Virus record (IMG/VR): IMGVR_UViG_3300013093_000225
Coordinates: 1 to 26,869 of that record
Length of the DNA: 26,869 nt
Strand: one strand, 5' to 3'
From: a virus
The notes beneath the pieces are model-generated. The model had not been told where the DNA came from, made no database searches, and saw nothing but the letters and a program-made list of their open reading frames with translations. Below are positions 1 through 23,680 of the stretch, in pieces. A program made the position numbers and the translations under genes. How positions within the stretch are numbered: the first letter of the stretch is position 1; each line of letters starts with the position of its first letter.

Positions 1-1
1 A

Positions 2-58
2 AAGCTTAAGTATTGTTACAGTCAAGCTTGCAATAGCTAAGCTTTAATAGTGAAGCTT
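2..58 (-). repeat. Four-copy AAGCTT array downstream of terS
   Basis: Four AAGCTT palindromes start at 2, 24, 39 and 53, spaced 22, 15 and 14 bp. Read on the minus strand, three of them continue as AAGCTTGACTGTA, AAGCTTAGCTATT and AAGCTTCACTATT, so the directional part points the same way as terS transcription, leftward out of the window. The array begins at the terS stop codon and fills the remaining non-coding bases. Short iterated sites beside a small terminase gene resemble terminase-binding sites in known pac and cos phages, but that is inference. Confidence 0.8.
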
Positions 59-554
59 ATAGGTCCTCTGTAGATCCTTCGCCTGTTTCCGGCGCTGGTA
101 AGGCAAGCTGCTCTAACATACCCGCAAGCTGCTCGCGCTGGTCATAGTCAAGCTGACCAACATTAATCGGTTGAACGTCAAGCTTACCCGTCACTTCAAT
201 CTGTTGCTTGTCGCTATAGTACTGATTCCATTTACCGATCAGCCTAAGCCTAGTGTCAATCATGGTTCGCTTGTGAGCTGGATCAATAGTCATGTCATCA
301 GCAATACGAATGCAGTCATCAGCAAGATAATGCGTGCCTATTCTTTGCGCATGCGCGAGATCGTCAGCAAAATCAGGCATTCGCTTTCGCCAGGTCCAAA
401 TCGTGTCAAAACTTGGCATTCCTTCCATTGCACAAATAGCTGACAATGTGATGCCGTTACAAAGCTTTTCAATGATAGCTATTCTTATTTCATCGCTATA
501 GATCGACGGTCTACCGAGCTTAAGTCTTTCGTGTGGCTCTTTCTTTCTTGTCAT
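57..554 (-). CDS. terS: Terminase small subunit (Sf6 gp1-like)
   Basis: This 165-aa protein looks like a small terminase subunit, which recognises the packaging site on phage DNA and recruits the large ATPase subunit. An N-terminal helix-turn-helix region (residues about 14-60, GRPSIYSDE through TIWTWRKRMPDF) is followed by a helical part (YLADDCIRIADD, about residues 77-88) typical of Sf6-type small terminases. The C-terminus is acidic and Pro/Glu-rich. A Shine-Dalgarno-like AGGTGAG lies 8 bases before the ATG and directly abuts an AAGCTT at 570. The large subunit would be expected further left on the same strand, outside the window. AAGCTT arrays flank the gene on both sides. Confidence 0.85.
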   Translation of the reverse strand: MTRKKEPHERLKLGRPSIYSDEIRIAIIEKLCNGITLSAICAMEGMPSFDTIWTWRKRMPDFADDLAHAQRIGTHYLADDCIRIADDMTIDPAHKRTMIDTRLRLIGKWNQYYSDKQQIEVTGKLDVQPINVGQLDYDQREQLAGMLEQLALPAPETGEGSTEDL

Positions 555-569
555 GCTTCAAACTCACCT

Positions 570-608
570 AAGCTTAGCTATGTTGCAAGCCAAGCTTAGG
601 CAAAGCTT
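570..608 (+). repeat. Three-copy AAGCTT array upstream of terS
   Basis: AAGCTT starts at 570, 592 and 603, spaced 22 and 11 bp, in the gap between two minus-strand genes. The copies at 570 and 603 continue on the plus strand as AAGCTTAGCTATG and AAGCTTGACTGTA. The second is identical to the minus-strand reading of the copy at 24. The directional halves here therefore face right, opposite to the array at 2-58, so terS sits between diverging arrays. The 570 copy also abuts the terS ribosome-binding site. Confidence 0.8.
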
Positions 609-615
609 GACTGTA

Positions 616-867
616 TTATACGTTATCTGTTTCTTCTTCTTCGTCGCCATCGCTTTCGTCATTGCTTTCGTCGTCTTCTTCTTCCATTGCTTGTTCAACG
701 TAGTCTAGCGCTGCTTCGAGCTGCTCGATTGCTTCATGGATGAATGCTAGCTGCGTCTCATATGGTAACAAATCAAAGTCGTCATTCCATTCTGCAATTG
801 TCGTGGCTTCATCATCGTTTACTAAATTAAAGCTTAACATGGCAATATCGCTGTTTAGGTCTGTCAT
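616..867 (-). CDS. Extremely acidic small protein, possible DNA mimic
   Basis: The protein has 83 residues, of which 30 are Asp or Glu; there is no Lys or Arg and one His, giving a net charge near -30. Residues about 1-60 look helical, and the last 25 residues are almost all Asp, Glu, Ser and Asn. The start at 867 is supported by an AAAGGG ribosome-binding sequence. It lies upstream of terS on the same strand and is divergent from the plus-strand block. I do not recognise the family. Small phage proteins this acidic sometimes mimic DNA (T7 Ocr, some anti-CRISPRs), so an anti-restriction or DNA-mimic role is a fair guess but only that. A packaging or scaffolding accessory is also possible. Confidence 0.7.
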   Translation of the reverse strand: MTDLNSDIAMLSFNLVNDDEATTIAEWNDDFDLLPYETQLAFIHEAIEQLEAALDYVEQAMEEEDDESNDESDGDEEEETDNV

Positions 868-1044
868 GGCTTTACCCTTTCATGGCTTGGAAACAGATTA
901 ACCCTACCAAAGGATTGTGACGCCGGAAAGACGCGACATTCCTAGTTATGCAATAAACGCATATCAGCTATGCATAAATAAGCTTGACTATAACCAAGCT
1001 TAACTATAAGGTAATTACGTTAACGCAAACCAAAGGAGCAAACC
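868..1044. promoter_or_regulatory. Divergent intergenic region with candidate promoter
   Basis: This 177-bp gap separates the divergent genes at 867 (minus) and 1045 (plus). On the plus strand TTGACT at 984-989 is followed after 15 bases by TATAAG at 1005-1010, a possible sigma70-type promoter with a short spacer. AAGCTT copies at 980 and 996 overlap it, so anything bound there would touch the promoter. A strong AAGGAG ribosome-binding site precedes the ATG at 1045. No other gene is seen. Confidence 0.45.
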
Positions 1045-1275
1045 ATGTCAATTGCGCGTTACGCTGTCTATTTTGTCGACCCTTCCGTTAATGAATATGT
1101 CTTTCATTCAAGCGGTCCTAATCGCGAAACTATGCAATCGCAAGCCGATGCAATTAATCGCAATATGCCAAGGATGAAAGCCATTGTGTTAACGTCACAT
1201 AGTCCAAACGATAGGGTCGATCCTTATCATCAAGACTTTGCTCGTAAGTCACATTTAGAAAAAGCTTTCGCTTAA
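1045..1275 (+). CDS. Hypothetical protein, 76 aa
   Basis: This is the first gene of the rightward block, starting at an ATG with a strong upstream ribosome-binding site (AAAGGAG). The 76-residue product begins MSIARYAVYFVDPSVNEYVF and is mixed alpha/beta in appearance, with no Cys motif, signal peptide or membrane segment. I do not recognise a family. The gene is followed by a hairpin and two AAGCTT copies before the next start. One AAGCTT (1262) lies inside its last codons. Its leading position suggests early expression, but no function can be assigned. Confidence 0.75.
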   Translation: MSIARYAVYFVDPSVNEYVFHSSGPNRETMQSQADAINRNMPRMKAIVLTSHSPNDRVDPYHQDFARKSHLEKAFA

Positions 1276-1286
1276 CAGTAACGACG

Positions 1287-1312
1287 ACGCAAGCTTAGCA
1301 ATAGGCTTGCGT
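1287..1312 (+). terminator. Hairpin with AAGCTT in its left arm
   Basis: ACGCAAGC at 1287-1294 and GCTTGCGT at 1305-1312 form a perfect 8-bp stem around a 10-base loop. The sequence after it is TTCTCTTGAC, without a proper T-tract, so a Rho-independent terminator is only weakly supported. An AAGCTT-RRCWATA element (1291) forms part of the left arm and loop. It may instead be a processing site or leader structure for the gene at 1357. Confidence 0.4.
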
Positions 1313-1356
1313 TCTCTTGACTGTTTAAGCTTAACAACGAAACGAAAGGGACTAAC

Positions 1357-2043
1357 ATGCTTTATAATTATCAAGTCGCTTTGACGCTTAAGTCACGAAA
1401 CACAAAAACCGGACCTATACCCGTCTCGACAACAACATATTCAACATGTCCCGACGCTTGTCCGTTACGCAAGAACGGTTGCTACGCTGGAAACGGTCCA
1501 TTATTTTTATTCTGGCAGAAAGTCACTGATCAAAATGTCGGTGGCTCATGGCAAGCTTTCGTCGATCAAATTGCTAAGCTTAAAGCTAAAACGCTATGGC
1601 GACACAATCAAGCCGGTGACTTGCCGGGTAATCGCGTGACAATCGACAAGAAAGCTTTGCTTATGTTAGTGAAAGCCAATATGGGCAAGCTTGGCTTTAC
1701 GTATACGCATTATGATGTGATCAATAACAAAACTAATCGCGATTTGGTTAACCAAGCCAATAAAGACGGATTTACTATCAATCTTTCGGCGAACAATATC
1801 GACCACGCGGACAAGCTTAAAGCTTTGAATATCGGACCCGTTGCCGTCGTGCTTCCGTCAAGCTTGCAAGGTAACCAAAAACTAACAACACCAAACGGTA
1901 ACAAAATCGTCGTTTGTCCTGCAACGTATCGTGACGACGTGTCCTGCAAGTCTTGTGGCTTGTGTGCAATGCAACGCGATGCAATCGTAGGTTTCCCCGC
2001 TCATGGCGTACAGGTAAAGCGTGCCGATAAAATTGCAGCATAA
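1357..2043 (+). CDS. Cysteine-rich phage protein, DUF7227/Gp88-like
   Basis: The 228-aa protein has seven cysteines in two groups: C31, C35 and C42 (CPDACPLRKNGCY) and C187, C197, C200 and C203 (CKSCGLC). Between them are WRHNQAGDLPG (81-91), FTYTHYD (114-120) and an INLSANN strand (141-147). This arrangement matches the phage DUF7227 family and resembles mycobacteriophage Gp88-type proteins, all of unknown function. Paired Cys groups on an apparent repeating beta/alpha fold suggest metal or iron-sulfur binding, which is inference. The start has a GAAAGGG ribosome-binding site and an upstream AAGCTTAACAACG element. Seven AAGCTT copies lie within the gene in all three codon phases, which is very unusual. 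Confidence 0.85.
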   Translation: MLYNYQVALTLKSRNTKTGPIPVSTTTYSTCPDACPLRKNGCYAGNGPLFLFWQKVTDQNVGGSWQAFVDQIAKLKAKTLWRHNQAGDLPGNRVTIDKKALLMLVKANMGKLGFTYTHYDVINNKTNRDLVNQANKDGFTINLSANNIDHADKLKALNIGPVAVVLPSSLQGNQKLTTPNGNKIVVCPATYRDDVSCKSCGLCAMQRDAIVGFPAHGVQVKRADKIAA

Positions 2044-2077
2044 TCAAGCTTAACAATAACAACGAAAGGACAATATC

Positions 2078-2302
2078 ATGCGACCTTTATACACAATAGC
2101 ACGCGACATTCGTAAAGATTGGCTTAAAGTAAACTACGCTGCAAAGCCTTACCTTGACGCTATGTCGAGCCTGTCATCGATTAACGACGCTTTCTATCAT
2201 GACAGTGGTAAGAGCGTTGTGCGTTATTTTTTAAGCAATGCTTCGACGTGGCGTGGCGACATAGCAAAGGCCATAAAGGCTGAGCTTAAAGCCATGCTAT
2301 AA
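2078..2302 (+). CDS. Hypothetical protein, 74 aa
   Basis: The product is a basic, probably helical 74-aa protein (MRPLYTIARDIRKDWLKVNY at the N-terminus). It is preceded by GAAAGGAC as ribosome-binding site and, further upstream, by an AAGCTTAACAATA element at 2046. Another identical element (2302) begins at the last base of its stop codon. The family is recognisable only as a recurrent small phage protein of unknown function with an IARDI-W-K-V-YAAKPYLDAM pattern. There are no Cys pairs or membrane segments. Confidence 0.75.
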   Translation: MRPLYTIARDIRKDWLKVNYAAKPYLDAMSSLSSINDAFYHDSGKSVVRYFLSNASTWRGDIAKAIKAELKAML

Positions 2303-2323
2303 AGCTTAACAATATCAAACAAC

Positions 2324-2348
2324 GATAGGCGTCTTTATGATGCCTATC
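2324..2348 (+). other. Hairpin between 2078 and 2386 genes
   Basis: GATAGGCGTC at 2324-2333 and GATGCCTATC at 2339-2348 form a 10-bp stem with one G-T wobble and a TTTAT loop. No T-tract follows, so it is not a classic terminator. It stands in an 83-bp gap between two small genes, 20 bases after an AAGCTTAACAATA element. It could be a mRNA processing or attenuation structure. Confidence 0.45.
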
Positions 2349-2385
2349 ATAACACTAAACCCATGAAACTAAAAGGAAAACCATC

Positions 2386-2580
2386 ATGCAATGGTCAGTT
2401 TACCATCGTCTAAACCTACATGTCAGCGCGTCTAATCTTGATTTGATTAGAGCAGTTTGGCGCAAAATTGATCGGACTAAAAAACAACGCGACGCTAGAA
2501 GCATGCGACATGCGCTTTACAAGCTCTTGATTGAGCATCATGAACAAGCTCGCGAGGTAGTCAAGGTGTGGCGACTATGA
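2386..2580 (+). CDS. Hypothetical protein, 64 aa
   Basis: This is a very basic 64-residue protein (MQWSVYHRLNLHVSASNLDL at the N-terminus), rich in Arg, Lys and His and predicted helical. An AAAAGGAAAACC ribosome-binding region precedes the ATG. Its stop overlaps the start of the next tiny ORF by ATGA at 2577-2580, which implies translational coupling. I do not recognise a specific family; similar short proteins occur in other proteobacterial phages. Nucleic-acid binding is conceivable from the charge but not shown. Confidence 0.7.
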   Translation: MQWSVYHRLNLHVSASNLDLIRAVWRKIDRTKKQRDARSMRHALYKLLIEHHEQAREVVKVWRL

Positions 2581-2681
2581 CTTGGCTCGATACGCTTGAC
2601 GCGCTTTATGAAGTTTCCGGGTGGTACGTTTTGTTAATGGCCACATGGGTAGCTTGCGATAAAATATTTGGTGAAAAATAA
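2577..2681 (+). CDS. 34-aa possible membrane microprotein
   Basis: This small ORF starts inside the ATGA stop overlap of the preceding gene and encodes 34 residues ending at TAA 2679-2681. Residues about 15-27 (GWYVLLMATWVAC) form a short hydrophobic segment, so a single-pass membrane peptide is possible. The stop overlaps the AAGCTTGACTATT element and the candidate promoter that follow. Support is the coupled start and the tight fit between genes; there is no homology evidence. Confidence 0.5.
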   Translation: MTWLDTLDALYEVSGWYVLLMATWVACDKIFGEK

Positions 2682-2683
2682 GC

Positions 2684-2712
2684 TTGACTATTATTTTTAA
2701 GCTTGGCAATAT
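2684..2712 (+). promoter_or_regulatory. Candidate sigma70 promoter overlapping two AAGCTT sites
   Basis: TTGACT at 2684-2689, a 17-base spacer and CAATAT at 2707-2712 give a good bacterial promoter layout 43 bases before the ATG at 2755. The -35 hexamer is made by the end of one AAGCTTGACTATT element (2680). The spacer and -10 contain the next, AAGCTTGGCAATA (2699). The repeat elements may therefore supply promoter parts here, or act as operators over them. Confidence 0.5.
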
Positions 2713-2754
2713 GGCTTTGCTTTTTTAATAGAACAGCAAAACGGAGAAAAAAAA

Positions 2755-2907
2755 ATGACACCGCAGCAAAAATTAGACAACATTGCTTTGCTTGATTTTC
2801 GGCTTGCTGGCTGGATTGTTAACAGCAAGCTTATGGGTCTAAGCGATGACGATATTCTGAAAACAGTTAAAAAAATTATAGACGTGCTTAACATCGTGAA
2901 AAAATAG
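2755..2907 (+). CDS. Hypothetical protein, 50 aa
   Basis: This short gene follows the candidate promoter at 2684-2712 and has the ribosome-binding sequence GGAG followed by an eight-to-nine base A-tract up to the ATG. The 50-aa product starts MTPQQKLDNIALLDFRLAGW and ends in a Lys/Ile/Val-rich helix (KKIIDVLNIVKK). No known domain is visible. It is coding-like, with the next gene starting 8 bases after its stop behind another A-rich leader. Confidence 0.6.
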   Translation: MTPQQKLDNIALLDFRLAGWIVNSKLMGLSDDDILKTVKKIIDVLNIVKK

Positions 2908-2915
2908 GAAAAAAA

Positions 2916-3119
2916 ATGTATATCGTGAAAGACGTAGACAACGTGTATTCATCCTCGATTATTGCTGAGGTCAATACCTTACCAGAAGCGATTCGGGCCA
3001 TTCCGGGTAAAATTTATCTTATCGAAGAGGATGAGCAGTTTCCCGGCCATCATGACGTGATCACTTGGCAATGCCGCCAATTCGTAATTGAACCTAAAAA
3101 GGCGAAAAAAAATGTATGA
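2916..3119 (+). CDS. Hypothetical protein, 67 aa
   Basis: The 67-residue product (MYIVKDVDNVYSSSIIAEVN at the N-terminus) looks like a compact alpha/beta protein and ends with a Lys-rich tail (KKAKKN). The start is preceded by AGG and an A-tract. Its stop overlaps the start of the next gene: ATG at 3112 lies inside its 3' end. No family is recognised; it belongs to the run of small coupled genes between 2386 and 5086. Confidence 0.7.
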   Translation: MYIVKDVDNVYSSSIIAEVNTLPEAIRAIPGKIYLIEEDEQFPGHHDVITWQCRQFVIEPKKAKKNV

Positions 3120-3369
3120 TATTGACGATGAAATTGACAAAATGAACCCTTTGGATCCTGCTGGCTTGGAATTCGCCTATCCTGCAGGCTCACAATATAG
3201 CAGCAGAACACGTCAATTCCGTGTTTTAGGCTTTCGTGACCTTGAACATGCGCAAAAATGGAAAGACGCCTACTATGAGCGCGCTTGGGGCTACGGTCCT
3301 ATTATTCGCATCATTGAGAATGATAAAAAAATTGAAATAACCGTCGACGAGATGACCTCTTGCGATTGA
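3112..3369 (+). CDS. Hypothetical protein, 85 aa
   Basis: I place the start at ATG 3112 rather than upstream at 3088 because 3112 follows AAAAAGGCG plus an A-tract, the same leader style as neighbouring genes. This overlaps the preceding gene by 8 bases. The 85-aa product contains RQFRVLGFRDLEHAQKW (about residues 34-50), which resembles a small ferredoxin-like alpha/beta fold, and ends acidic. Function is unknown. Two AAGCTT copies (3371 and 3380) follow immediately after the stop. Confidence 0.7.
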   Translation: MYDIDDEIDKMNPLDPAGLEFAYPAGSQYSSRTRQFRVLGFRDLEHAQKWKDAYYERAWGYGPIIRIIENDKKIEITVDEMTSCD

Positions 3370-3426
3370 CAAGCTTAGCAAGCTTTGCTACTGATTTGAC
3401 ACCAATAACACCAATGGAGAAAAAAA

Positions 3427-3756
3427 ATGTCTATTATCCCGACACTTGATATCTACTCTTTGAGCGATGCTGATCTTGTCGATGAGGCTGCGAAGCTTGA
3501 TTTGACTATCAAGGCTTTGACGAAAAAGTTTGATGAGGCCAAGTCATGGATACGTGCCCGGCAGCTGGATGAGATCTGCGGCACTAATTTTAAGGCAGTC
3601 ATCTCGACGCCTAGCATTCGGTGGACACTGGACACGGATCGCGTCAAGAAAGAAATGGGCGAGACATGGTACACAGAGCGTTGCAAGATATCGCAGCCCT
3701 CGCCTGCCGTGTCCTTCAAGCCTTACATGACCCTCGACCAGATCAAAATCGCATGA
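3427..3756 (+). CDS. Hypothetical protein, 109 aa
   Basis: The 109-residue product begins with a helical, coiled-coil-like half (SLSDADLVDEAAKLDLTIKA, about 12-31) and continues with TNFKAVISTPSIRWTLDTDR, then a C-terminal stretch with paired aromatic and Pro residues. The pattern of an N-terminal helix followed by a strand-rich part that binds along a helix recalls small phage proteins encoded near recombination genes, but I cannot name a family. The ribosome-binding site is GGAGAAAAAA. The stop overlaps the next start (ATGA, 3753-3756). Confidence 0.75.
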   Translation: MSIIPTLDIYSLSDADLVDEAAKLDLTIKALTKKFDEAKSWIRARQLDEICGTNFKAVISTPSIRWTLDTDRVKKEMGETWYTERCKISQPSPAVSFKPYMTLDQIKIA

Positions 3757-3899
3757 TCTTACCTTGGAAAAAAAAGATACCACGCGACATTACGGTGCCG
3801 CGTGTTCGCACTTGGTTAATAGCCAAGTTTAAAGTGGCACAATCCAACCCAGCAGATTTAACCTGCGTTTTTGTAAAGGATAAGAAAAATGACGGATAA
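3753..3899 (+). CDS. Hypothetical basic protein, 48 aa
   Basis: The start at ATG 3753 is chosen because it sits in an ATGA overlap with the previous stop; the longer reading from 3621 would run deep into that gene in another frame. The 48-aa product is Lys/Arg-rich (MILPWKKKIPRDITVPRVRT at the N-terminus) with no recognised domain. Its 3' end overlaps the next gene start (3889) by 11 bases, which supports a coupled, real gene. Confidence 0.55.
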   Translation: MILPWKKKIPRDITVPRVRTWLIAKFKVAQSNPADLTCVFVKDKKNDG

Positions 3900-4176
3900 A
3901 CCAGAAAAAATAAAGATGATTGACGTAAGCATAAGTGTACCAGAAAAAATTGGTAAAATTATATGGGTGCTAGGCGAAACAGGCATCTATCCGACAGATG
4001 AGTTTGATGAATTGGATCCGCCTGATCAGCTAGAAAAAATTAACAGTATTGTGGAAACATTCTCATCGTTCCGATATCGCGCTATGGTGGCTATGATGAT
4101 GGCAACAGTTGAAACACTACACGGCATCGTCGACGAGCTTTACGAAGATGAAGGCCACGGGGAGGCAATCCACTAA
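3889..4176 (+). CDS. Hypothetical protein, 95 aa
   Basis: This acidic 95-aa protein is mostly helical, with a DELDPPDQLEKINSIVETF segment (about 40-58) and a Met-rich helix (YRAMVAMMMATVETL) near the C-terminus. AAAGGATAAG serves as ribosome-binding site. The stop shares a base with the next ATG (TAATG). No known family is recognised. The Met-rich helix is amphipathic rather than a clear membrane span. Confidence 0.7.
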   Translation: MTDKPEKIKMIDVSISVPEKIGKIIWVLGETGIYPTDEFDELDPPDQLEKINSIVETFSSFRYRAMVAMMMATVETLHGIVDELYEDEGHGEAIH

Positions 4177-4469
4177 TGGCTATCCGTATCGCATCAACAG
4201 AAACAGAAAAACCTAAAGCTAAGCTTGTTAAGAAAGCAGCCCCACCAAAAGAAAAGTTACCGATTGAAACTACCCAAAACCAATCAGTAACCCCGGCTCG
4301 TGGCAAGCGTGGCTTTGGGTCTATGGACACCGAAAAACGCCGCCTAGCGCAGTCCAAGGGCGGCGCAAGCGTGGCTAGAGAAAAACGGCACTTTGCTGCG
4401 AACCCTGAGAAAGCACGAGAAGCAGGGCGTAAAGGTGGCCAAGCGAAAAAGAAAAAAGCAGAGGTATAA
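4176..4469 (+). CDS. KGG-repeat (stress-induced motif) basic protein
   Basis: The 97-aa, strongly basic protein carries two copies of the KGG-type motif: RRLAQSKGGASV (about 55-66) and KAREAGRKGGQAKKKK (about 79-94). Such motifs define the small, disordered stress-induced proteins exemplified by E. coli YciG and the conidiation-like KGG families. The N-terminal 45 residues are Lys/Pro/Glu-rich and probably disordered. In bacteria these proteins associate with stress and stationary phase; the role in a phage is not known, though DNA or RNA binding fits the charge. The start overlaps the previous stop by one base. Confidence 0.8.
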   Translation: MAIRIASTETEKPKAKLVKKAAPPKEKLPIETTQNQSVTPARGKRGFGSMDTEKRRLAQSKGGASVAREKRHFAANPEKAREAGRKGGQAKKKKAEV

Positions 4470-4808: not shown

Positions 4809-5086
4809 CGGGATTTACCAGCAAAAAGAAAAGCGCCGAGGTTCGTTGGCTTGGACCTTATGCGCCACATGAACGCCATGCCGATGACACAACCGTAGCC
4901 GATTTAGTTCGGCTGCGGTGGGAAAATAATTACATAAAAGAAAGTCTAGACTTTTATAAAAAGCAGCATCTCGACATGATGGATCTGATCGAATCGTTAA
5001 CCCGGCAGCTTGTAGAGGCTAAAAACTGCGCATGCCGTAAGCGTGATAAAGAACTTGAGCAAATGTTCGAGGAGATGTCTAAATGA
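4805..5086 (+). CDS. Hypothetical protein, 93 aa
   Basis: The start at 4805 is placed in the ATGA overlap with the DUF551 gene instead of the upstream ATG at 4763. The 93-aa product has a conserved-looking N-terminal stretch, VRWLGPYAPHERHADD, then a long coiled-coil-like helix with a C-terminal CACRKRDKELEQMFEEM. It is coupled to the GcrA gene, whose start overlaps its stop (ATGA at 5083). Function is unknown. Confidence 0.7.
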   Translation: MTGFTSKKKSAEVRWLGPYAPHERHADDTTVADLVRLRWENNYIKESLDFYKKQHLDMMDLIESLTRQLVEAKNCACRKRDKELEQMFEEMSK

Positions 5087-5622
5087 TGCTATTACCGTGG
5101 TCGGCTCGCGATAAAGCTATTCTCATTGAGATGTGGCAGGCAGGCGCAAGCGCGGTAGCTATTGCTCATAAGCTTGGCAATGGACGAACCCGCAATTCAA
5201 TCCTTGGCTTTGTTCATAGGTTAAGGAGAAAAAATCCTGAGATACAATTACGAAATGAAAATACGCGAAGAACGCCTAACCCAGACGGAATAAAGATTGT
5301 TAGGACAAGACCCCAACCAAAGAAAAAAGAACAGCCTATCGTTCAAGTAAACCTGTTTACACCTATTGCAGAAGAACCCGCACCAGATGGCGGCGTGCCG
5401 TATTTTGAAACACGGCTATTCCAATGTAAGTACATCTTAAATACCAGCAAAGACCCCCATAATATCCGGTGTTGCGGTGGTGTGGTATATCGAACCACAT
5501 CATGGTGCCGTAAACATTATGATGAGGTATTTACAGGACGTATTTACCCCGGAACACAGGTCGGCCATTTATCATCTGGCAAAACTCAGGTGGCATCAAA
5601 ATTCCAGTTTCGTCGAATGTAA
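5083..5622 (+). CDS. gcrA: GcrA-family cell-cycle regulator
   Basis: The 179-aa protein has the two-part GcrA layout. Residues about 5-47 form the DNA-binding helix-turn-helix (WSARDKAILIEMWQAG, AIAHKLGNGRTRNSILGFVH). After a Lys/Pro-rich linker comes the Cys-rich C-terminal module with C115, C130, C131, C142 and H145, as in the sigma70-interacting domain. In Caulobacter GcrA acts with sigma70 at promoters methylated by CcrM (GANTC). A phage copy could redirect host transcription or sense cell-cycle stage, which is inference. About 28 residues extend past the core and overlap the convergent metallophosphoesterase gene by 92 bp. The family strongly suggests an alphaproteobacterial host. Confidence 0.85.
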   Translation: MMLLPWSARDKAILIEMWQAGASAVAIAHKLGNGRTRNSILGFVHRLRRKNPEIQLRNENTRRTPNPDGIKIVRTRPQPKKKEQPIVQVNLFTPIAEEPAPDGGVPYFETRLFQCKYILNTSKDPHNIRCCGGVVYRTTSWCRKHYDEVFTGRIYPGTQVGHLSSGKTQVASKFQFRRM

Positions 5623-6838: not shown

Positions 6839-7637
6839 CTAAAGTATAAGCAGCAGCGTGGCCTGTGAAACTTTCGTCGTGGTCGCCAAAAACTGTAACA
6901 CTTTGTGCTATAGCTGGCGGCGTCCACTTGGCTAAGTTCTGCGCATTAATTGCTGCCCACACCGGAATGCCAAACAACACCGATGCAGCTATAGCTGTCT
7001 CGATGCCCTCAGCTATGCCCATATGTATATCAGCAGGTGATAAGCGAATTGCTGATCCATCTGGCAACGGTCCTGCCATAACGCGACGAGTCGGATTCAC
7101 GTCTGCCTTCTGCCCATCCTCGGTGATGTAAGTCAGGTGAACATTCTGGGCCGTATCGTCTGAGCCAACAATCTTACTGACCATCAACCAGTAATTAGCA
7201 CTGCGATATTCCCGTATTGATTTAGAAGCCCATACAAGCCCTAAACGGTTCTTCATGTAGGCGTGTACTGGCCCACCGATGGATGGCTGCTCAGCAAGCC
7301 CCCAAATTCGTTTAATGGCCTCTCTGCGCTTGAGATCGTCGCTTTGATCCTTGCCAGAAAGAACCGGGGCTTCTCCTAATAGCTTGGCTATCGACTCAGC
7401 GATAACCTTAAACGACTTCCCTGTGGCCAATTGGGCTAGTGTGATTCCGTCCCCGGCACCGCATGAATTGCAGATGAAAGATCCTCTGCCATCCTTGTTG
7501 TCAAACCGGAATCTATCTTTGCCACCACAGATAGGGCATGGACCATGCTTGTTAATGAGGTAGTTTGGATTGACCCCAAGCTTGGGTAGAAGTTCCAGCC
7601 ACTTGCCTTGTGCTATATCCGCTGTTGTTTTTGTCAC
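6720..7637 (-). CDS. P4-type DNA primase (Zn ribbon and Toprim)
   Basis: The 305-aa primase contains an N-terminal zinc ribbon, C34-x2-C37 (CPICGGKDRFRF) and C56-x2-C59 (CNSCG). It is followed by a Toprim domain with E210 in AEGIETA and the acidic pair at GDHDES (251-256). The C-terminal LMPPVVGQDWADVL is also typical of the family. It would make RNA primers for phage replication together with the upstream helicase. No helicase domain is fused, unlike P4 alpha. The start at 7637 keeps the conserved segment before the zinc ribbon, so the 86-bp same-strand overlap with the helicase gene appears genuine. Its 3' end overlaps a convergent HTH gene. Confidence 0.9.
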   Translation of the reverse strand: MTKTTADIAQGKWLELLPKLGVNPNYLINKHGPCPICGGKDRFRFDNKDGRGSFICNSCGAGDGITLAQLATGKSFKVIAESIAKLLGEAPVLSGKDQSDDLKRREAIKRIWGLAEQPSIGGPVHAYMKNRLGLVWASKSIREYRSANYWLMVSKIVGSDDTAQNVHLTYITEDGQKADVNPTRRVMAGPLPDGSAIRLSPADIHMGIAEGIETAIAASVLFGIPVWAAINAQNLAKWTPPAIAQSVTVFGDHDESFTGHAAAYTLAKRLTLQHHVQVQVLMPPVVGQDWADVLGRASKDPSQQQ

Positions 7638-9099
7638 GTTGTTTTGCCTTAACGATGTTACGGTGTTTAATCCAGCTCAGTGTCGCAGCCGAAGGCGCAA
7701 GAGCAATGCCTTTGAACGAATTGGACGGGCCAACCCCAAATTTATCCTTATATGCCCAATAGGCCCACCCGTCTTTGAATCCACGAGTAATCGCGTAGCC
7801 TCGCAGTTCTGAATAGAATGTTTCCTTTTCCTGCGCGGAGTAAGCTCCGATTTGTTTTTTTCCATCTCGACTAAGTTCAGCGAGTGTTCCGGTACGATGC
7901 TCAACCTTATCAACAGCCTCAGCCTTGAAACCACATGCCGGGCATAAAGCTGTGCGGGGTGGCTTGAGGAACGTGCATTTCGGGCAAGCTTTGGGAAGGG
8001 GCATGGTTTTTTCACGTTCAACGGTTCCTTTGCCTTGGCCATCATCTAACCTGTCATGAATGATATCTGTTACAAAACCTAACCGCAGCGTTGTGTCGCT
8101 GTGGTCTAACACCAAACAGTATTCTTTGCCTTCAGCCGTTCTTAAACCACGGCCAATCATTTGCGTGTACAGAATTTCTGATTTAGTCGGCCTTGCCAGA
8201 ATGATGCAATGCACATTCCAATCAATACCCGTGGTAAGCACACCAACATTGCAAACGATCTTTAGGGTGCCATCCGCAAATTGTTTTGCTATCTCTGACC
8301 GTTCTTCCAAGTCGGTATAGGCGTCCATGTATCCCGTGGGCACACCTGCATCGAGAAACAGTTTCTGAATGTTCTTGGCATGGGTACGGTTAACCGCAAA
8401 ACAAATCGTAGGGCGATATTGGCCCTTCTCTAACCACGTCGACACAATGTCGGCGACCAATGGTGCCTTGTCCATTGCGGTGCCAAGTTGTTTCTTGTTG
8501 TAGTCACCTGCGACAACAGCCACGCCAGAAAGATCTGGATGGGATGGTGCAAACACCTTGAAGTCCGATAGGTGTTTCAAATCAATCAGTTCTTGCGTTG
8601 TCGTGCCGATAATCAAATCATCGTAGATGCGCCCCATGCCCTTTGCCCAAGGCGTGGCCGTCAAACCAACGACAGGAATGTTTTTCCATTGAGGGCTATC
8701 AAACCAAGTCTCGTAGAACTTAAACATCACATGGCATTCATCCACGATAACCAGATCAGCTTCCGGCAAAGACTTTCTCCTTGCCAAGGTCTGAACTGAG
8801 CAGATTTGAATTGGTTGAGTTGGGTCGGTGCGCTCATGCAAAGCTTGGATAACACCAATTTCCCAAATGTCGTGCTTCTCAAACTTGTCTACGGTTTGAT
8901 CGATGAGGCTGATCGCAGGCACACAAAACAAAACTCGCTTGCCCTTTTCGCGAGCCATGCGAACAATCTCAGCTGCGGCGATTGTCTTGCCAGCTCCAGT
9001 TGGCATTTGCACGACGGGACGGCGATTACCCAAGCTTAGCGACTTGCGTAGCTTATCTATAGCATCTGTCTGATACTGTCTTAGCTTAGCTTTAGTCAT
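7552..9099 (-). CDS. SF2 DEAD/DEAH-type helicase
   Basis: The 515-aa protein has superfamily 2 helicase motifs in order: Walker A PTGAGKT (33-39), Walker B DECH (120-123), motif III TATP (147-150) and motif VI QMIGRGLR (313-320). A C-terminal zinc ribbon follows at C372-x2-C375 and C386-x2-C389. This ResIII/helicase_C layout is common in phage replication modules, where it likely unwinds the template or remodels the origin next to the primase. The C-terminal tail overlaps the primase start by 86 bp. Upstream lies the non-coding segment 9100-9303; no clear promoter was found there. Confidence 0.9.
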   Translation of the reverse strand: MTKAKLRQYQTDAIDKLRKSLSLGNRRPVVQMPTGAGKTIAAAEIVRMAREKGKRVLFCVPAISLIDQTVDKFEKHDIWEIGVIQALHERTDPTQPIQICSVQTLARRKSLPEADLVIVDECHVMFKFYETWFDSPQWKNIPVVGLTATPWAKGMGRIYDDLIIGTTTQELIDLKHLSDFKVFAPSHPDLSGVAVVAGDYNKKQLGTAMDKAPLVADIVSTWLEKGQYRPTICFAVNRTHAKNIQKLFLDAGVPTGYMDAYTDLEERSEIAKQFADGTLKIVCNVGVLTTGIDWNVHCIILARPTKSEILYTQMIGRGLRTAEGKEYCLVLDHSDTTLRLGFVTDIIHDRLDDGQGKGTVEREKTMPLPKACPKCTFLKPPRTALCPACGFKAEAVDKVEHRTGTLAELSRDGKKQIGAYSAQEKETFYSELRGYAITRGFKDGWAYWAYKDKFGVGPSNSFKGIALAPSAATLSWIKHRNIVKAKQRDKNNSGYSTRQVAGTSTQAWGQSKLPH

Positions 9100-9303
9100 G
9101 TTATTAACCTTAGTTATATTATTATATATATATTACTTCTTATTATTTCTTCTTGGTAAGGCTATGTATAGCTATACAAGCTTAGTATAGCTACGCGGGG
9201 AAAGAACCCGCCTCCGAGCAGGAGGCCAGACGCGGGTCAAGTCACCGTTATCAGTGACGGCTAAAAGGGAGGAATACCGTCACGATCTTACGGTTATCAG
9301 AAT
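9100..9303. other. AT-rich, hairpin-rich intergenic; candidate origin
   Basis: This 204-bp gap lies upstream of the helicase and downstream of the DnaA-like gene. Bases about 9105-9150 are nearly all A and T. Next come the perfect palindrome GTATAGCTATAC (9166-9177), an AAGCTT (9178) and a second GTATAGCTA (9185). A GC-rich part with nested stems follows: ACCCGC 9206-9211 with GCGGGT 9232-9237, enclosing GCCTCC/GGAGGC at 9210-9226. Then GTGACGG 9254-9260 pairs with CCGTCAC 9278-9284. GTTATCAG occurs twice (9247 and 9293). An unwinding element plus iterated sites beside replication genes suggests an origin; a structured RNA is the alternative. Confidence 0.5.
9206..9237. other. Nested GC-rich stem-loops
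   Basis: An outer stem ACCCGC/GCGGGT (9206-9211 and 9232-9237) and an alternative inner perfect 6-bp stem GCCTCC-GAGCA-GGAGGC (9210-9226) compete for two bases. GCGGG 9195-9199 could also pair with CCCGC 9207-9211. The mutually exclusive pairings look like a switch or attenuator, on whichever strand is transcribed. Leftward transcripts into the helicase gene would contain it. Confidence 0.45.
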
Positions 9304-9711
9304 TTACACCAGATGCAAGTCCTGCTCGTATTTTTTGCAATTGTAAATTACCGTTGAATGCCGGACATCCATGAGTCGGCCAATTTCCGAATACGGCAAA
9401 TGCAATTCATTTTTGGCGCGGTAAAACAGTTCGCGTCTTACTTTAACGACATCAGGTTTAATGTTTGAACTTCTTACGATATTCGGATCGATGCCGTGCA
9501 TAGCGGCAATCTCTCTAAGCATAGCTGTAAATCGTTTATTAGGAAGCTTAACTTGTAGGACGGGTTGGTCAGCTAAAAGTTTACTTTCTTGCGGCAATTT
9601 GACGCGCTCAGGCGGAACGACACCAGTAGGACCAGTGACGCCGCCCAACCGTTTTTTGACGGCTAAGTATCTGGCTCTTAGTTCATCAAAAGTTTGCGGC
9701 TCTCTATCCAT
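9304..9711 (-). CDS. DnaA domain IV-like DNA-binding protein
   Basis: The 135-aa protein ends in a domain like DnaA domain IV (about residues 88-132): RRELFYRAKNELHLPYSEIG, then a recognition-helix pattern DVRHSTVIYNCKKYE that matches the DnaA signature with H-S-T-V. There is no AAA+ ATPase part, so it cannot be a full initiator. It may bind origin-like sites or regulate transcription. The first 60 residues are Pro/Lys-rich and probably linker. It overlaps the RusA gene by 34 bp and is adjacent to the hairpin-rich region at 9100-9303, which could be its target. Confidence 0.8.
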   Translation of the reverse strand: MDREPQTFDELRARYLAVKKRLGGVTGPTGVVPPERVKLPQESKLLADQPVLQVKLPNKRFTAMLREIAAMHGIDPNIVRSSNIKPDVVKVRRELFYRAKNELHLPYSEIGRLMDVRHSTVIYNCKKYEQDLHLV

Positions 9712-10061
9712 GTGTCTTCCTCAATGCCATAAACGGTGACCACCATCGGTATGCCATGTTCCCCCCATTCGGCAGCTATGGCTTGGCAATCCGAATCATC
9801 ATCTACAACTTTAGTTTTAACCAATAAGTCGCTGGTAGACTTTAGTAAGTTATCCAAATCCCGACGCCTTTTGTCAGGTTTAGTGGCTGATATGTGAATG
9901 ATATACCGCCCAAGTATTTGAGCTTTGGTCTGCGCTTTGACCATCCAACCAGCTTCTTCAAGCCAAGCCATGTATTCAGGGGAACGATACATACGACCAC
10001 CTTTGCCTACCTTCCATAAACGGTTCGTGCTGGGGGCCAATGGTAACTCAAGCCGAATCAT
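9678..10061 (-). CDS. rusA: RusA-type Holliday junction resolvase
   Basis: The 127-aa protein matches the RusA family in length and motifs: an N-terminal strand (LPLAPSTNRLWK) and the catalytic acidic set in RRRDLDNLLK (D68, D70) and VVDDDSD (D87-D89). E. coli RusA uses comparable aspartates to cut four-way junctions. It would resolve recombination intermediates made by ERF-type recombination and clear branches before packaging. It overlaps the XRE gene by 14 bp and the DnaA-like gene by 34 bp, so it is co-transcribed with them. Confidence 0.9.
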   Translation of the reverse strand: MIRLELPLAPSTNRLWKVGKGGRMYRSPEYMAWLEEAGWMVKAQTKAQILGRYIIHISATKPDKRRRDLDNLLKSTSDLLVKTKVVDDDSDCQAIAAEWGEHGIPMVVTVYGIEEDTWIESRKLLMN

Positions 10062-10266
10062 TCTGTTTCCAATCCAGAAAAAAGTGGTGGAGTGTAATCT
10101 CTTTGTTGGTGGCCTGTAATATACGAACCATCAACGCTAAAGATGGGTCTTGAACTCCCCGCTCAATTCTAGAAATAGATGACGCAGTTGTCCCCGCTAT
10201 TTTAGCCAAATCAACCAAAACGACGTTATTTTTCTTACGCCATTGACGTAATGGATGCTCATTCAT
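10048..10266 (-). CDS. XRE-family HTH regulator, 72 aa
   Basis: Almost the whole 72-aa protein is a single XRE/Cro-C1 helix-turn-helix: LRQWRKKNNVVLVDLAKIAG, TTASSISRIERGVQDPSLAL and a final helix. There is no dimerisation or protease-sensitive domain, so it is Cro-like in size rather than a LexA-type repressor. It is the second gene of the leftward replication operon, behind the gene at 10507, and probably acts at the divergent region 10508-10609. A candidate operator hairpin lies at 10572-10594. Confidence 0.85.
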   Translation of the reverse strand: MNEHPLRQWRKKNNVVLVDLAKIAGTTASSISRIERGVQDPSLALMVRILQATNKEITLHHFFLDWKQNDSA

Positions 10267-19100: not shown

Positions 19101-19990
19101 TTCTGTCCGGCCAAAGCAGCTTCTTCTTGGGCCGCAGATAGTCCTTGGCCAAAACCTTGCTGGCCCAATCCTGCGATCTGGTTAGCTTGGTTGGCCAATG
19201 CTGCACGATTGGCTTGGTCAGCACTAAGATTAACGCCTTGTTGTTGTTGGAATGCGCCTAAACCTTGCGCATAACCCTGATTAAGCAAATTGCCTAACAC
19301 ATTTCCAGTAGCTATGTTCTGTTGGCCCTGCAAAGCAGCACGAGCCAAATCAGCACGCTCACCACCAAAAGCACCTTGCGTAATTTGATTGCCAATTAAA
19401 CTCTGTTGGTCCATTTGCTGCTGTTGCTGCAATGGAGCAAGTGTACCCTGAACCACTTGGTTCATATATGGGTTCATGTATTGGCTTAATGCGTTTTGGC
19501 TAAATTGCTGAGCGTATACAGGAGCGGCTGCATTGCCAGCCAAATTGGTAGCTTGAGTAAGATAATTTTGGCCCTGCCCCAATGCAGCATTTACAGCAGA
19601 TTCTTGCTGTTGAACTTGAGGAGTTAACTGCGAATACGCGGAATTTAATACATTTGTTGCATTTTGGTTGTATTGGGAGCCTAATTGCTGCCCCAAACCA
19701 ACTTGACTATATGCAGCTTGAATTTCTGGTAATGCTAAAGCTTGGCCTTGATTGATATCGGTTGTAGCTTGAGCGTAATAAGGTTGAGCTAAGCCAGCTG
19801 AAGCATTTACATCTTGAATACCGGACTGCTCAGTGGGGGATAATCCCGCCACCATTTGGCCAGTATATTGTTGGTAAGGCTGGTTATATGTATTCCAAGC
19901 CAAACTGGATAATTTATCATAATTCGCCTGTACGTCGGCAGGTGGGAGCGTTGTCGTAGTAGATGTTGCTGTACCTGTAGAACCACACAC
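16184..19990 (-). CDS. Giant virion protein with internal S74-like chaperone domain, 1268 aa
   Basis: Start is GTG 19990 with a GGAG ribosome-binding site; the product begins MCGSTGTATS. Residues about 20-410 are Gln/Ala/Gly-rich and repetitive, including three approximate 36-40-aa repeats at 245-356. Residues 440-506 match an S74-type intramolecular chaperone: SDERFKENMEPVGK, IYKYNYKGD, MGLSAQEVEKHNPSAV and the closing YLNYDDAT. The Ser441/Lys446 pair has the S-x4-K spacing of the autocleaving dyad. About 760 residues follow, with FARGGL (514), FASGGVV (650) and RAKGGRV (863), then a helical C-terminal region. It is probably a tail, fibre or internal virion component; the exact role is not clear. 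Confidence 0.75.
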   Translation of the reverse strand: MCGSTGTATSTTTTLPPADVQANYDKLSSLAWNTYNQPYQQYTGQMVAGLSPTEQSGIQDVNASAGLAQPYYAQATTDINQGQALALPEIQAAYSQVGLGQQLGSQYNQNATNVLNSAYSQLTPQVQQQESAVNAALGQGQNYLTQATNLAGNAAAPVYAQQFSQNALSQYMNPYMNQVVQGTLAPLQQQQQMDQQSLIGNQITQGAFGGERADLARAALQGQQNIATGNVLGNLLNQGYAQGLGAFQQQQGVNLSADQANRAALANQANQIAGLGQQGFGQGLSAAQEEAALAGQNFGAGSQTAQQLANIGQQAYSQDVGAAQAQAGLAGQAFGIDQATSQQLAALGTGAQNAALQGAQAQMSAGAVQRGVQQATDTANQQQFQAAQAFPYQNEQLLANLLLGIGGQSGGTALTSQPTGNMLSSIIGGTLALGQTGLLGSDERFKENMEPVGKTFDGQNIYKYNYKGDDTTRMGLSAQEVEKHNPSAVHKDDKGMRYLNYDDATKHAADKGHFARGGLADSMGGAVHEGLGRANYALRGGVESTYFSDIPYTYQPSGGSQTPLTLADIMPLANVQKVRTGWTTEPRASAIKDDSPDLTSIIKSATTTPGQRANIKSAFGGLFSPYSPTSADITAKYANWVPQSAADYNFASGGVVGRKGYAGDDGDSGGVGGYSSQLASMGSQINQTLQNLQAPPDPNKPRTLAEMIVGHPLSDEANLGVMAAGLGMLGSKSTNPFVAVGEGAQEGLGTYYNATKSLRDYQTKLQEDALKAYADANTAAYQQGELGLRGQQLNQEQIKNGFELLNKLQQKYEPQRGGFYKNIETNENISKEQFINIYENSAAMLKLPPGLSSFVIGGTPPARAKGGRVGLALGGTEQSGLASADISMPEPDAIQQKSDITKLISSTLGAGEGDVDTSMPKIQVAEIKGTPQKSAAFPDIAPDATPEYFNSLADDAMKEYNFLSGFGKSRETEAKQALEQVAANRKIADEIATGQRATKLINPDTGEPAGYAPSPTAVAAAQKRAAEAEVLKTSVADMNKLDDEFASKAETRPQARARINDASEILSAWQSGKLSDIKAKLPAYADALGLNVDKYKLDSDSPNYETFAKDSAQAMFDRVKDLGGRLLATTISGEKQANMNPDLQPKTNRNIIGFAKGAMDYEDQFYNDYNNWRATDGKLATKAQYNQFLQNWQKDPQNDFGKFVDNGRATTPVLGDLPDSGLRRSGYQYVIPNEQLGGDMKAQYPNGVIATWAGKGWDRNSIKGFTPQ
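18923..19258 (-). repeat. Three tandem 36-40-aa repeats within 1268-aa protein
   Basis: Residues 245-284, 285-320 and 321-356 align as degenerate repeats. The last two are exactly 36 residues and share AAQ-x2-A-x-LAGQ-x-FG-x5-T-x-QQLA. They encode long Gln/Ala helices, likely a coiled or fibrous stalk. At DNA level the copies have diverged, so this is an old duplication. Confidence 0.65.
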
Positions 19991-21099: not shown

Positions 21100-21437
21100 C
21101 ACGAATATCCTACAGAAATAATGGACCCAGTGCCGGGGGAAAAGTATAAACCCGTCGCAAATGGAACTTGGATTTGATAGATACCAAGCGTATTAGGAAC
21201 GGCGTAAATGCGAGAACCTGATGCTGCCGAAGTAGCATCATAAAGATAACCCTGTGTAGAGCCTGCTACTATAACGCTTACGGTGGCCAACCAACCAGAC
21301 GAAGATTTAATTATTGCCCCGGCAGACAATTCTTTACTGTTTGACGCGCCAGCATGAAAATTTACAGCGTTTGCATATGAATTAATTGCAATAACGCCAT
21401 TTTTCTGAGTAGTCAGGATATCATCTAAACTAGCCAT
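21099..21437 (-). CDS. Hypothetical structural protein, 112 aa
   Basis: The 112-aa protein has a short N-terminal helix with MASLDDILTTQKNGVIAINS and then a beta-rich domain (GWLATVSVIVAGSTQGYLYD; YQIQVPFATGLYFSPGTGSI), typical of small proteins encoded beside phage tail genes. It shares one base with the genes on both sides (21437 and 21099), so the cluster is tightly coupled. No confident family beyond phage hypothetical. Confidence 0.7.
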   Translation of the reverse strand: MASLDDILTTQKNGVIAINSYANAVNFHAGASNSKELSAGAIIKSSSGWLATVSVIVAGSTQGYLYDATSAASGSRIYAVPNTLGIYQIQVPFATGLYFSPGTGSIISVGYS

Positions 21438-23680
21438 TAGAATTTCCCGTCTAATTGATAACGGAATTTAATGCCGCCCAATCGCCAGAATGTCCCAACA
21501 TCTTGAGACGACAATGAAAACGCCATGTAACGCGCCCTGATTCGGCAAGATATGTATTCCGTTGATTGCGTCATAGGAAATGTAATAGACGATACCTGCC
21601 CCGATGGCGAACCAGAATAGTAACTGGTTGACGGAGAAGTTGCAGTATCTGTAGCATAATTTGTATAATAAATGGTCACATACACCGTAGCGTTTTGATT
21701 GCCGCTATACGTGCCCCATTTCATATCAGGCCAAATTTGGTCCACAAATACAATATTTTCGCCTTCGGTAAGTTGAAAATAACCTGTTTGGAATGATGAA
21801 AGCATGGGTGTAGTGGTTGTTCCCACCGCAGCATCGTTACCTACTTCGTGTTGATAGATGTATGTATCGCCACCCGCAGCAATAGGAGATCCCAAGCCAG
21901 ATTGGTCAATCCATGCTGTACGGCTCAACGTACCAAAATCCCACTGCCCAATAAGGAAATTATATTTTACATATGAATCGTTTTCTGTGGAGTTTTGCGA
22001 TGGGTAGTACCAAGTTACTTCGTTAAATTGGGAATTAACGCCGCAACATACTTTATAATAATAGTTTGGATTAATGTTTTGAAAAACTACGTCAAATATT
22101 GGGCATGGCATTGGTTCCGGGCCGCTGCCTGTCATTACGAAGAAATTACGCTGAGACATCCAGTAAATGGAATTATTTACCTGACCAATGCAATGACGGG
22201 ATATCGCACCGCAATTTGATCCAATTTTATTAAACCCATAAACAAGTGGGAATCCCACATATTGCATGGCCCACAAATCAATATCTGTCCAAATAAGACC
22301 TTGTTGCGGCCCTTGGAAACCAGCTACAATTTTTGAACCTGTAGGAATACGGTAAGAACCTGCTTGATTGGTTACAGTAGCATTCCAAGTCGTGAAGTCT
22401 TGTACATCTGACCAACGGATAAGCAACGGATCCGGCGAAAGCGTAAAGCTAGATCCATAGGCTATCACTTGTCGTTCTGGCATGGCGACAAAGATGCCAC
22501 TATTAACCAATGGAGCTTGGGCGCTTAATATCTGTGCATTTAAAACTGATCCGTTAGGTTGCCAATAATAAATTGGCCCACCCGCTGGGCATGCAATTAA
22601 GTCTTGCCCAAAATTATCTAAAGTCCAATCTGTCGCTGTAATGGCTGTGCCGGGATTTGTAATGGCCGTACCAACGCCAAAGCCACCGACGCCAAATCCA
22701 CCAACACCAAACCCAGTGCCAATCGGCTGCGGCCCGACACCAATATAATAAACAGATTGGACATTCCCGCTATTAATGGCAGTAGGGCCAGCCGATGATG
22801 TAGCTAAGTTAGATGCGGCAAATGTAAATGATCCTGCACTGGGCACGCTTACAACAGTGTACAACCCAGATAATGTAATCCCGCCAATTGTAAGCGGCAC
22901 ACCTATATAGAAATTAGACCCTACATTATAGCCGTGGTTGTCAAAATACCCTGTAACAATAGAAGATGACGAGGTTGTCTGAAACGAATAAACACCAACT
23001 AATTTTGCTGTTCCCGTGCCAGCGCCAACGCCTGTGGCATTAAATATCACGCCAACCGTATTCGCCGATGCGCCAATTAACGTGTAATCCGTCGTGCCAA
23101 CGGTTACAATTTTGTACGTTTCCCCCACAACAAAAGAACCTGCTGTGGTATTTGTTGATGTATTGGCTGTCGATGTTGCTGCAGATCCGGCATTAATTGT
23201 GTAAGTTGTTCCCGCATAGGTCAATAACTGGTAGGGACCAGTAAGCACCAGCCCGCCAACAGAAACAGGTGTTACAAAGTCAACGTAGTCAAATACAGTC
23301 AATACCGTTGTATTAGAATCCGTGACTGAAACTGTACTAGATCCAGCTGTAGTTGCAAAAACAGGGGCGGTATTTGTCGTAATTGTGCGTGGCGTTATAT
23401 CCGCCAAATTTCCATTAGTTAAAACGCTTAACGAAGATTCTGAGCCAATACCAAGATGGTTAATGGCATTTAAATCTGACCACGCTTTTAATGCGCGAAT
23501 CTTGGACCCAATAGCAGAATTAAAATATGCGACCCATCCGCCCAACTTTTGAGCGAGGCCAAATCCATTACGCTCTGATAGAAACCGAACAAGCTGCGAT
23601 GACGAATACGCAGCCTCATTCAGCACTGGTGTATTGTTAGTTTCTACGCCGGGTTTGAGCTTTATGGTTCCAAAGGGCAT
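21437..23680 (-). CDS. Tail hub protein, P22 gp10-like (putative)
   Basis: The 747-aa protein begins with a segment typical of podoviral tail-hub or DNA-stabilisation proteins: LKPGVETNNTPVLNEAAYSS and LAQKLGGWV (1-50). The second half has beta-propeller-like repeats such as PDPLLIRWSDVQDFTTWNA and GLIWTDIDLWAMQYVGFPL, plus MSQRNFFVMTGSGPEPMPCP. Residues about 120-300 contain two related Ig-like modules separated by a 48-residue insert (181-228). GFGVG is repeated three times (323-337). P22 gp10 plugs the portal and forms the tail hub; assignment here rests on pattern and on the adaptor gene directly upstream. Confidence 0.75.
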   Translation of the reverse strand: MPFGTIKLKPGVETNNTPVLNEAAYSSSQLVRFLSERNGFGLAQKLGGWVAYFNSAIGSKIRALKAWSDLNAINHLGIGSESSLSVLTNGNLADITPRTITTNTAPVFATTAGSSTVSVTDSNTTVLTVFDYVDFVTPVSVGGLVLTGPYQLLTYAGTTYTINAGSAATSTANTSTNTTAGSFVVGETYKIVTVGTTDYTLIGASANTVGVIFNATGVGAGTGTAKLVGVYSFQTTSSSSIVTGYFDNHGYNVGSNFYIGVPLTIGGITLSGLYTVVSVPSAGSFTFAASNLATSSAGPTAINSGNVQSVYYIGVGPQPIGTGFGVGGFGVGGFGVGTAITNPGTAITATDWTLDNFGQDLIACPAGGPIYYWQPNGSVLNAQILSAQAPLVNSGIFVAMPERQVIAYGSSFTLSPDPLLIRWSDVQDFTTWNATVTNQAGSYRIPTGSKIVAGFQGPQQGLIWTDIDLWAMQYVGFPLVYGFNKIGSNCGAISRHCIGQVNNSIYWMSQRNFFVMTGSGPEPMPCPIFDVVFQNINPNYYYKVCCGVNSQFNEVTWYYPSQNSTENDSYVKYNFLIGQWDFGTLSRTAWIDQSGLGSPIAAGGDTYIYQHEVGNDAAVGTTTTPMLSSFQTGYFQLTEGENIVFVDQIWPDMKWGTYSGNQNATVYVTIYYTNYATDTATSPSTSYYSGSPSGQVSSITFPMTQSTEYISCRIRARYMAFSLSSQDVGTFWRLGGIKFRYQLDGKF
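22670..22714 (-). repeat. Triple GFGVG pentapeptide repeat
   Basis: Residues 323-337 are three consecutive copies of GFGVG, coded by 15-base units that differ only at synonymous positions. Silent divergence with an intact amino acid repeat suggests that the flexible glycine linker is selected. It links the N-terminal modules to the propeller-like part. Confidence 0.75.
22997..23140 (-). other. Inserted 48-aa domain in tail-hub gene
   Basis: Residues 181-228 (GSFVVGETYKIVTVGTTDYT, then LIGASANTVGVIFNATGVG) form a compact module of a type that recurs in unrelated phage structural proteins. It stands between two similar modules of the host protein, which suggests insertion by recombination. No change of frame or remnant of a mobile element is seen at its edges. 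Confidence 0.55.

Follow-up and report, generated by a model that had tools for sequence, protein, structure and literature searches.

Why one phage should crowd the hexamer AAGCTT at one end of its sequence is the question raised by the stretch of DNA analysed here, 26,869 nt of a podovirus-like phage that carries terS, primase, helicase, Erf, Gam and structural genes (IMG/VR record IMGVR_UViG_3300013093_000225; in the following 'the window'). An earlier note on this DNA had counted AAGCTT by eye as 12, 10, 5 and 3 copies in the first four kilobases and 0–3 per kb thereafter, with a final copy at 19738. Our recount reproduced these figures exactly and gave 49 copies in total, while the GC content is 44.9% and not about 43% as estimated there. 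Bases 1–4000 hold 30 copies compared to 1.2 expected from base composition, which places AAGCTT at the top of the 64 palindromes (the next has 4 copies and the median is 1). Markov simulations of the same 4000 bases gave means of 2.3, 9.3 and 15.9 copies for orders 1, 2 and 3 (sd 4.0 at order 3). We regard the order-1 value as the fairer null, because high-order models absorb part of the signal, AAGCT and AGCTT being enriched by the sites themselves. The peak is real and a composition effect is excluded. It also runs opposite to the palindrome-avoiding norm, as the note had remarked: many other palindromes stand at 0 where 6–14 copies are expected.

The left-to-right gradient described in the note is correct in its counts but resolves into three parts, namely a dense zone at 1–3.5 kb, a weak coding excess at 4.5–17 kb (16 AAGCTT versus 6.8 in synonymous shuffles) and late genes past 19.7 kb with no copy at all. 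Within the dense zone each intergenic gap of at least 30 bp between 1 and 3427 carries 1–4 copies (Table 1), and the one at 2302 runs across a stop codon. Over the window the density is 12.5 per kb in noncoding versus 1.25 per kb in coding DNA. With gene calls from a simple script, coding copies at the peak exceed synonymous shuffles in the window (15 versus 5.2) as well as in G001 (21 versus 4.8), G003 (12 versus 3.8) and L007 (15 versus 5.6), and in all four AAGCTT ranks first of the 64 palindromes in this comparison (z 5.0–8.6). G001 keeps 13 of the 16 coding copies found in 1–4464 of the window, with an any-hexamer background of 0.53, while past 4.8 kb it keeps 10 of 13, no more than the background of 0.84. 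Since retention exceeds the background only near the focus, selection on the in-gene sites is plausible there and unsupported further out. A neutral word bias, or the codon usage of the early region, would fit the observation that words of the GCTTGG/CCAAGC type are common genome-wide and that the excess at 4.5–17 kb is not conserved. It is at odds with the tenfold higher noncoding density, with the excess over synonymous shuffles and with a peak that is conserved in relatives and shifted in its core in one of them (G009, see below). We consider it extremely improbable as a general explanation, although it may explain the weak tail at 4.5–17 kb.

The note had placed the suspected focus at the window or slightly to its left, and this is what we observed in G001, a 49-kb near relative that extends past the left edge. 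Window base 1 corresponds to about G001 22206, and the peak starts at G001 22161 with a tandem array, ~45 bases left of the first base of the window; further left it stops abruptly and AAGCTT falls to about 1 per kb. The peak is also conserved in diverged relatives, being found beside terS in those at 65–73% DNA identity (G002, G003, G004, G005 and L007); relatives with a TerL identity of 58–62% show no such AAGCTT peak. In the five relatives AAGCTT is the 5′ portion of an extended site, AAGCTTNASCATR, which reads AAGCTTGACCATA or AAGCTTCAGCATR; the 3′ part is missing from most coding copies, a point against the operator explanation given below. The array consists of several AAGCTT sites (more if degenerate ones are included) just 3′ of terS, which lies at the left edge of the window as the note had it. 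Its sites are mostly about 22 bp apart (often 21–22 bp) in relatives and 14–22 bp apart in the window and G001. On its other side it adjoins a long noncoding stretch, roughly 950 bp in G001 (21311–22262). Parts of the segment G001 21311–22150 (L099:1311–2150) are strongly conserved among relatives, with up to 95% identity over 229 bp to G004. The segment contains 11-bp TTGTTCACG-like repeats as well as a hairpin rich in GC, has no Rfam match and is a candidate for an origin or a noncoding RNA; an Rfam search of the window and four relatives likewise gave no family. Between the array and the terS 3′ end, antisense to terS, sits a conserved TATAAT-like element followed by GGAAACGGAACAAAACGTGAAAACGTCA (L101:4845–4930, with homologues in L144, G003 and G009).

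The note had read the focus as a packaging, replication or segregation centre. The focus itself stands and a replication role of the array is possible, but packaging is disfavoured. A packaging signal (pac/cos) bound by TerS, with secondary copies, would agree with the position of the array, which adjoins terS in all relatives having the peak. The site sequence, however, does not track TerS: G002, G004 and L007 have the array in common, yet TerS falls into two groups that share only about 40% identity, with G004 and L007 in one of them, and the core differs in L144 and G009. Copies embedded in promoters would moreover be left unexplained, and we judge this explanation very improbable.

A clearer picture emerged from relatives found through TerL (75–93% identical), in which the layout is kept and the core spelling is changed throughout. 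For this reason we regard AAGCTT as the operator allele of one lineage. G009 (L172; TerL 88% identical) has 0 AAGCTT in 53.5 kb and uses the core AAGCAT, with 21 copies of AAGCATGA clustered in one zone; its array occupies the homologous position, again with the hairpin and the TGTTC repeats alongside. We discarded AAGCTT avoidance as specific evidence, for G009 lacks many further palindromes too; the telling feature is that the AAGCAT form appears there in concert, zero AAGCTT alone not being special. L144 and G026 have the core TTGCTT in the form TTGCTTGACYATA, spaced 26 bp in L144, and L179 (TerL 75%) has the core ATGCTGTACCATA and repeats TTGACATATGSTACAG at several promoters. L241 and L242 were rejected as further members: their pattern matches lie in apparent coding repeats and they contain no homologue of the Cro-like protein described below. 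The palindrome as the functional unit, as the note took it, finds no support: the conserved unit is longer, and other relatives have AAGCAT, TTGCTT or ATGCTG at its core; the HindIII palindrome of AAGCTT is probably incidental. That related phages spell the core differently, and do so across all their sites, suggests a single DNA-binding protein as the reader of them all.

Many copies sit inside early promoters, which points to transcriptional control. Single copies were found in sigma70-like early promoters either over the −35 box, in the register AAGC[TTGACC]-17 bp-[TATAGT] (G003 18292, G005 16276), or inside the 17-bp spacer, as in [TTGACA]tatgctgaagcttcctc[TACAGT] (G002 6642), [TTGACA]tggcgcaagcttcagca[TATAAC] (L007 6046) and [TTGACA]tacgataagcttcagca[TACATT] (G005 15259); coordinates for G003, G005 and L007 refer to reverse-complemented records. 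Early promoters carry the site in either orientation (compare G002 6642 with G003 18292). When aligned by eye, the G002 promoter TTGACA-tatgctgaagcttcctc matches TTAACA-tatgctcatgcttttct of G009, and L179 repeats TTGACA-TATGSTACAG at several promoters. A simple −35 element was rejected, since the AAGCAT allele spoils the −35 box and many copies lie in the spacer instead. We scored promoters with an E. coli sigma70 matrix, which may not match the host of the phage, and shuffled the flanks while keeping the motif. In four relatives 7 of 13 sites reached p<0.05 (Fisher 4e-9, a guide only, as the sites are hand-chosen and partly homologous). The window itself has weak promoter matches, with 2 of 10 sites at p<0.05 (combined 0.005); in the element at 980–1020 the copies at 996 and 980 gave p 0.01 and 0.08, respectively, and the element at 2680–2711 was not significant alone.

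The explanation we consider probable from these sequence patterns is a multi-site operator system for early genes that would be read by one sequence-specific DNA-binding protein of the phage. The operators would be about 13 bp long, AAGCTTNASCATR in relatives and roughly AAGCTTRRCWATA in the lineage of the window (Table 1). Protein bound over the −35 box or to copies filling the 17-bp spacer would block (or gate) initiation at early promoters, while the array 3′ of terS and the extra copies in early gaps and genes may gather the protein and serve as additional roadblocks or for titration.

Table 1. Features of the window, with operators as proposed in the text
Feature	Position	Strand	Remarks
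Putative tandem operator array, right part (AAGCTT 2, 24, 39, 53)	2..58	+	Cut by left window edge; remainder G001 22161-22206
terS, terminase small subunit	57..554	-	PHROG 1482, E 2.4e-24
AAGCTT-bearing gaps	1-56, 555-615, 868-1044, 1276-1356, 2044-2077, 2303-2385, 2581-2754, 3370-3426		
Three putative operator copies (570, 592, 603)	570..608	.	Gap upstream of terS
Two putative operator copies	980..1020	+	In promoter-like TTGACT-17 bp-TAAGGT, upstream of gene at 1045
Putative operator copies 1291 and 1327	1291..1340	+	Upstream of DUF7227 gene
DUF7227/GP88-related protein	1357-2043	+	
Seven AAGCTT copies inside DUF7227 gene	1553..1865	.	Share of coding excess over synonymous shuffles
Putative operator AAGCTTAACAATA	2046..2058	+	Upstream of gene at 2078
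Putative operator AAGCTTAACAATA	2302..2314	+	Upstream of gene at 2386
Two putative operator copies	2680..2711	+	In promoter-like TTGACT-17 bp-CAATAT, upstream of gene at 2755
Two close AAGCTT copies	3371..3385	+	Upstream of gene at 3427
GcrA-like transcription factor, alternative candidate reader	5083..5622	+	PF07750, E 1.8e-8
Isolated putative operator copy within inverted repeat	9170..9195	-	Upstream of helicase gene (7552-9099); kept in G001
DnaA domain IV (DNA-binding) protein, alternative candidate reader or replication factor	9304..9711	-	PF08299, E 2.4e-9
Cro/XRE (HTH_3) protein, 72 aa, candidate operator reader	10048..10266	-	HTH_3, E 6e-12

The main rival is a replication origin at the array, whose sites would be iterons for an initiator, placed beside the conserved noncoding stretch, the hairpin and the TGTTC repeats, with autoregulatory copies at promoters. 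Iteron origins contain tandem direct repeats about two helical turns (about 20–22 bp) apart, beside an initiator gene and an AT-rich region, and initiator sites can also regulate promoters. Tandem direct repeats are present here as well and a spacing of about 22 bp suits iterons (in the window and G001 it is 14–22 bp); the adjoining stretch of roughly 950 bp with its parts shared with G004, the conserved GGGGGGTGCCGCCACCCCC-type hairpin and TTGTTCACG-like repeats nearby, and a phage-encoded protein with DnaA domain IV are all in favour of this reading. Unlike what an origin alone would leave, however, the sites are scattered across the early region, where they occupy numerous distinct promoters and also genes within a span of several kb. 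The GC skew within the window shows no clear switch at the site, no Rep-type initiator was recognised and no Rep-type gene adjoins the array. We think it unlikely that an origin accounts for the sites, although it could coexist with promoter control.

Regarding the protein that would read the operators, exactly one HTH_3 protein above the curated cut-off was found in each of seven genomes. In the window this is a 72-aa Cro-like protein (40.9 bits compared to a cut-off of 23) that resembles SinR and DdrO. It is our leading candidate for the reader and would then shut off the early genes, though we hesitate to call it the probable one. TASSISR is the sequence of the recognition helix in every member with a GCTT core, while G009 with its GCAT core has TAASISR, so that a change of Ser29 to Ala accompanies the change of T to A in the core; from a comparison with 434-type repressors we assume this residue to be at a base-contacting position. 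The correlation amounts to one evolutionary change, and the outer two core bases vary (AAGCTT, TTGCTT) under an identical helix, for which reason another protein may be the reader, or the Cro-like protein may leave the outer bases unspecified. In front of the operon of its own gene there is no AAGCTT. As targets of the 72-aa protein in this phage and of its counterparts in G002 and G009 we propose AAGCTTGACCATA/AAGCATGACCATA; GCTTGACCATA would pair with the proteins of this phage, G002 and G026, and GCATGACCATA with that of G009. Alternative readers are the DnaA-domain-IV protein and a GcrA-like regulator. Close to the array, the TTGTTCACG repeats look similar to a DnaA box that has diverged. 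The GcrA-like regulator hints at an alphaproteobacterial host; a literature search linking GcrA to phage early genes returned nothing. A more elaborate version, in which the early region including its genes is marked with dozens of sites for the phage's own small Cro-like protein, the tandem array beside terS nucleates spreading or bridging of this protein along early DNA, and the spelling switches in concert in sister lineages of a phage without a recognised integrase, seems to us unlikely as a whole; for the Phage_integrase family there was no match in the seven genomes, which are partly incomplete.

The reader could also come from the host, as a regulator or a nucleoid protein that varies from host to host, in which case the core would track the host. 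This would agree with G006, an apparently unrelated T7-like phage that also has an AAGCTT cluster with AAGCTTAAGCATA pairs. A scan for paired sites in 84,980 bacterial and archaeal genomes, however, returned 12 stretches of apparently unrelated repeats, and we regard a host protein as improbable. In G006 itself (L118/L119) nine AAGCTT, including two tandem AAGCTTAAGCATA, lie in about 1 kb after terL; this phage lacks a TerS homologue, and hardly any of its proteins match the family of the window phage.

A literature search on AAGCTT repeats in phages found nothing relevant among the papers listed. The stoperators of L5-type (Cluster A) mycobacteriophages consist of an asymmetric 13-bp site that recurs more than twenty times in promoters and in the short gaps between genes, with a motif that diverges between relatives (PMC9283540, PMC6550527). 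Here, too, many copies of one asymmetric ~13-bp site occur in promoters and intergenic gaps, but there is additionally a dense tandem array beside terS as well as copies within genes. L5 stoperators follow the direction of transcription, a rule that fails here given the two orientations at early promoters. In the L5 system, bound repressor blocks elongation of transcripts. The L5 repressor has 183 residues and its Cluster A family two DNA-binding domains, whereas our candidate has 72 residues and a single HTH_3 domain. By analogy, the operator system would work like L5 stoperators but probably use another protein family. With lambdoid Cro/CI and the SinR/DdrO-type HTH_3 regulators it would share a small HTH_3 protein and sites in promoter spacers; unlike the few sites of lambdoid Cro/CI there are dozens, and a divergent CI/Cro switch was not seen.

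If the operator explanation is true, the spellings of the sister lineages form a natural series of protein/DNA recognition codes, and they show how an entire set of dozens of regulatory sites can be respelled jointly in closely related phages. The exchange of Ser29 for Ala alongside T for A in the core makes coevolution directly testable in a small candidate protein, and phage operator systems in uncultured genomes can surface through palindrome counts. As a side observation, the DUF7227/GP88-related protein is very widespread in viral contigs among the matches listed.
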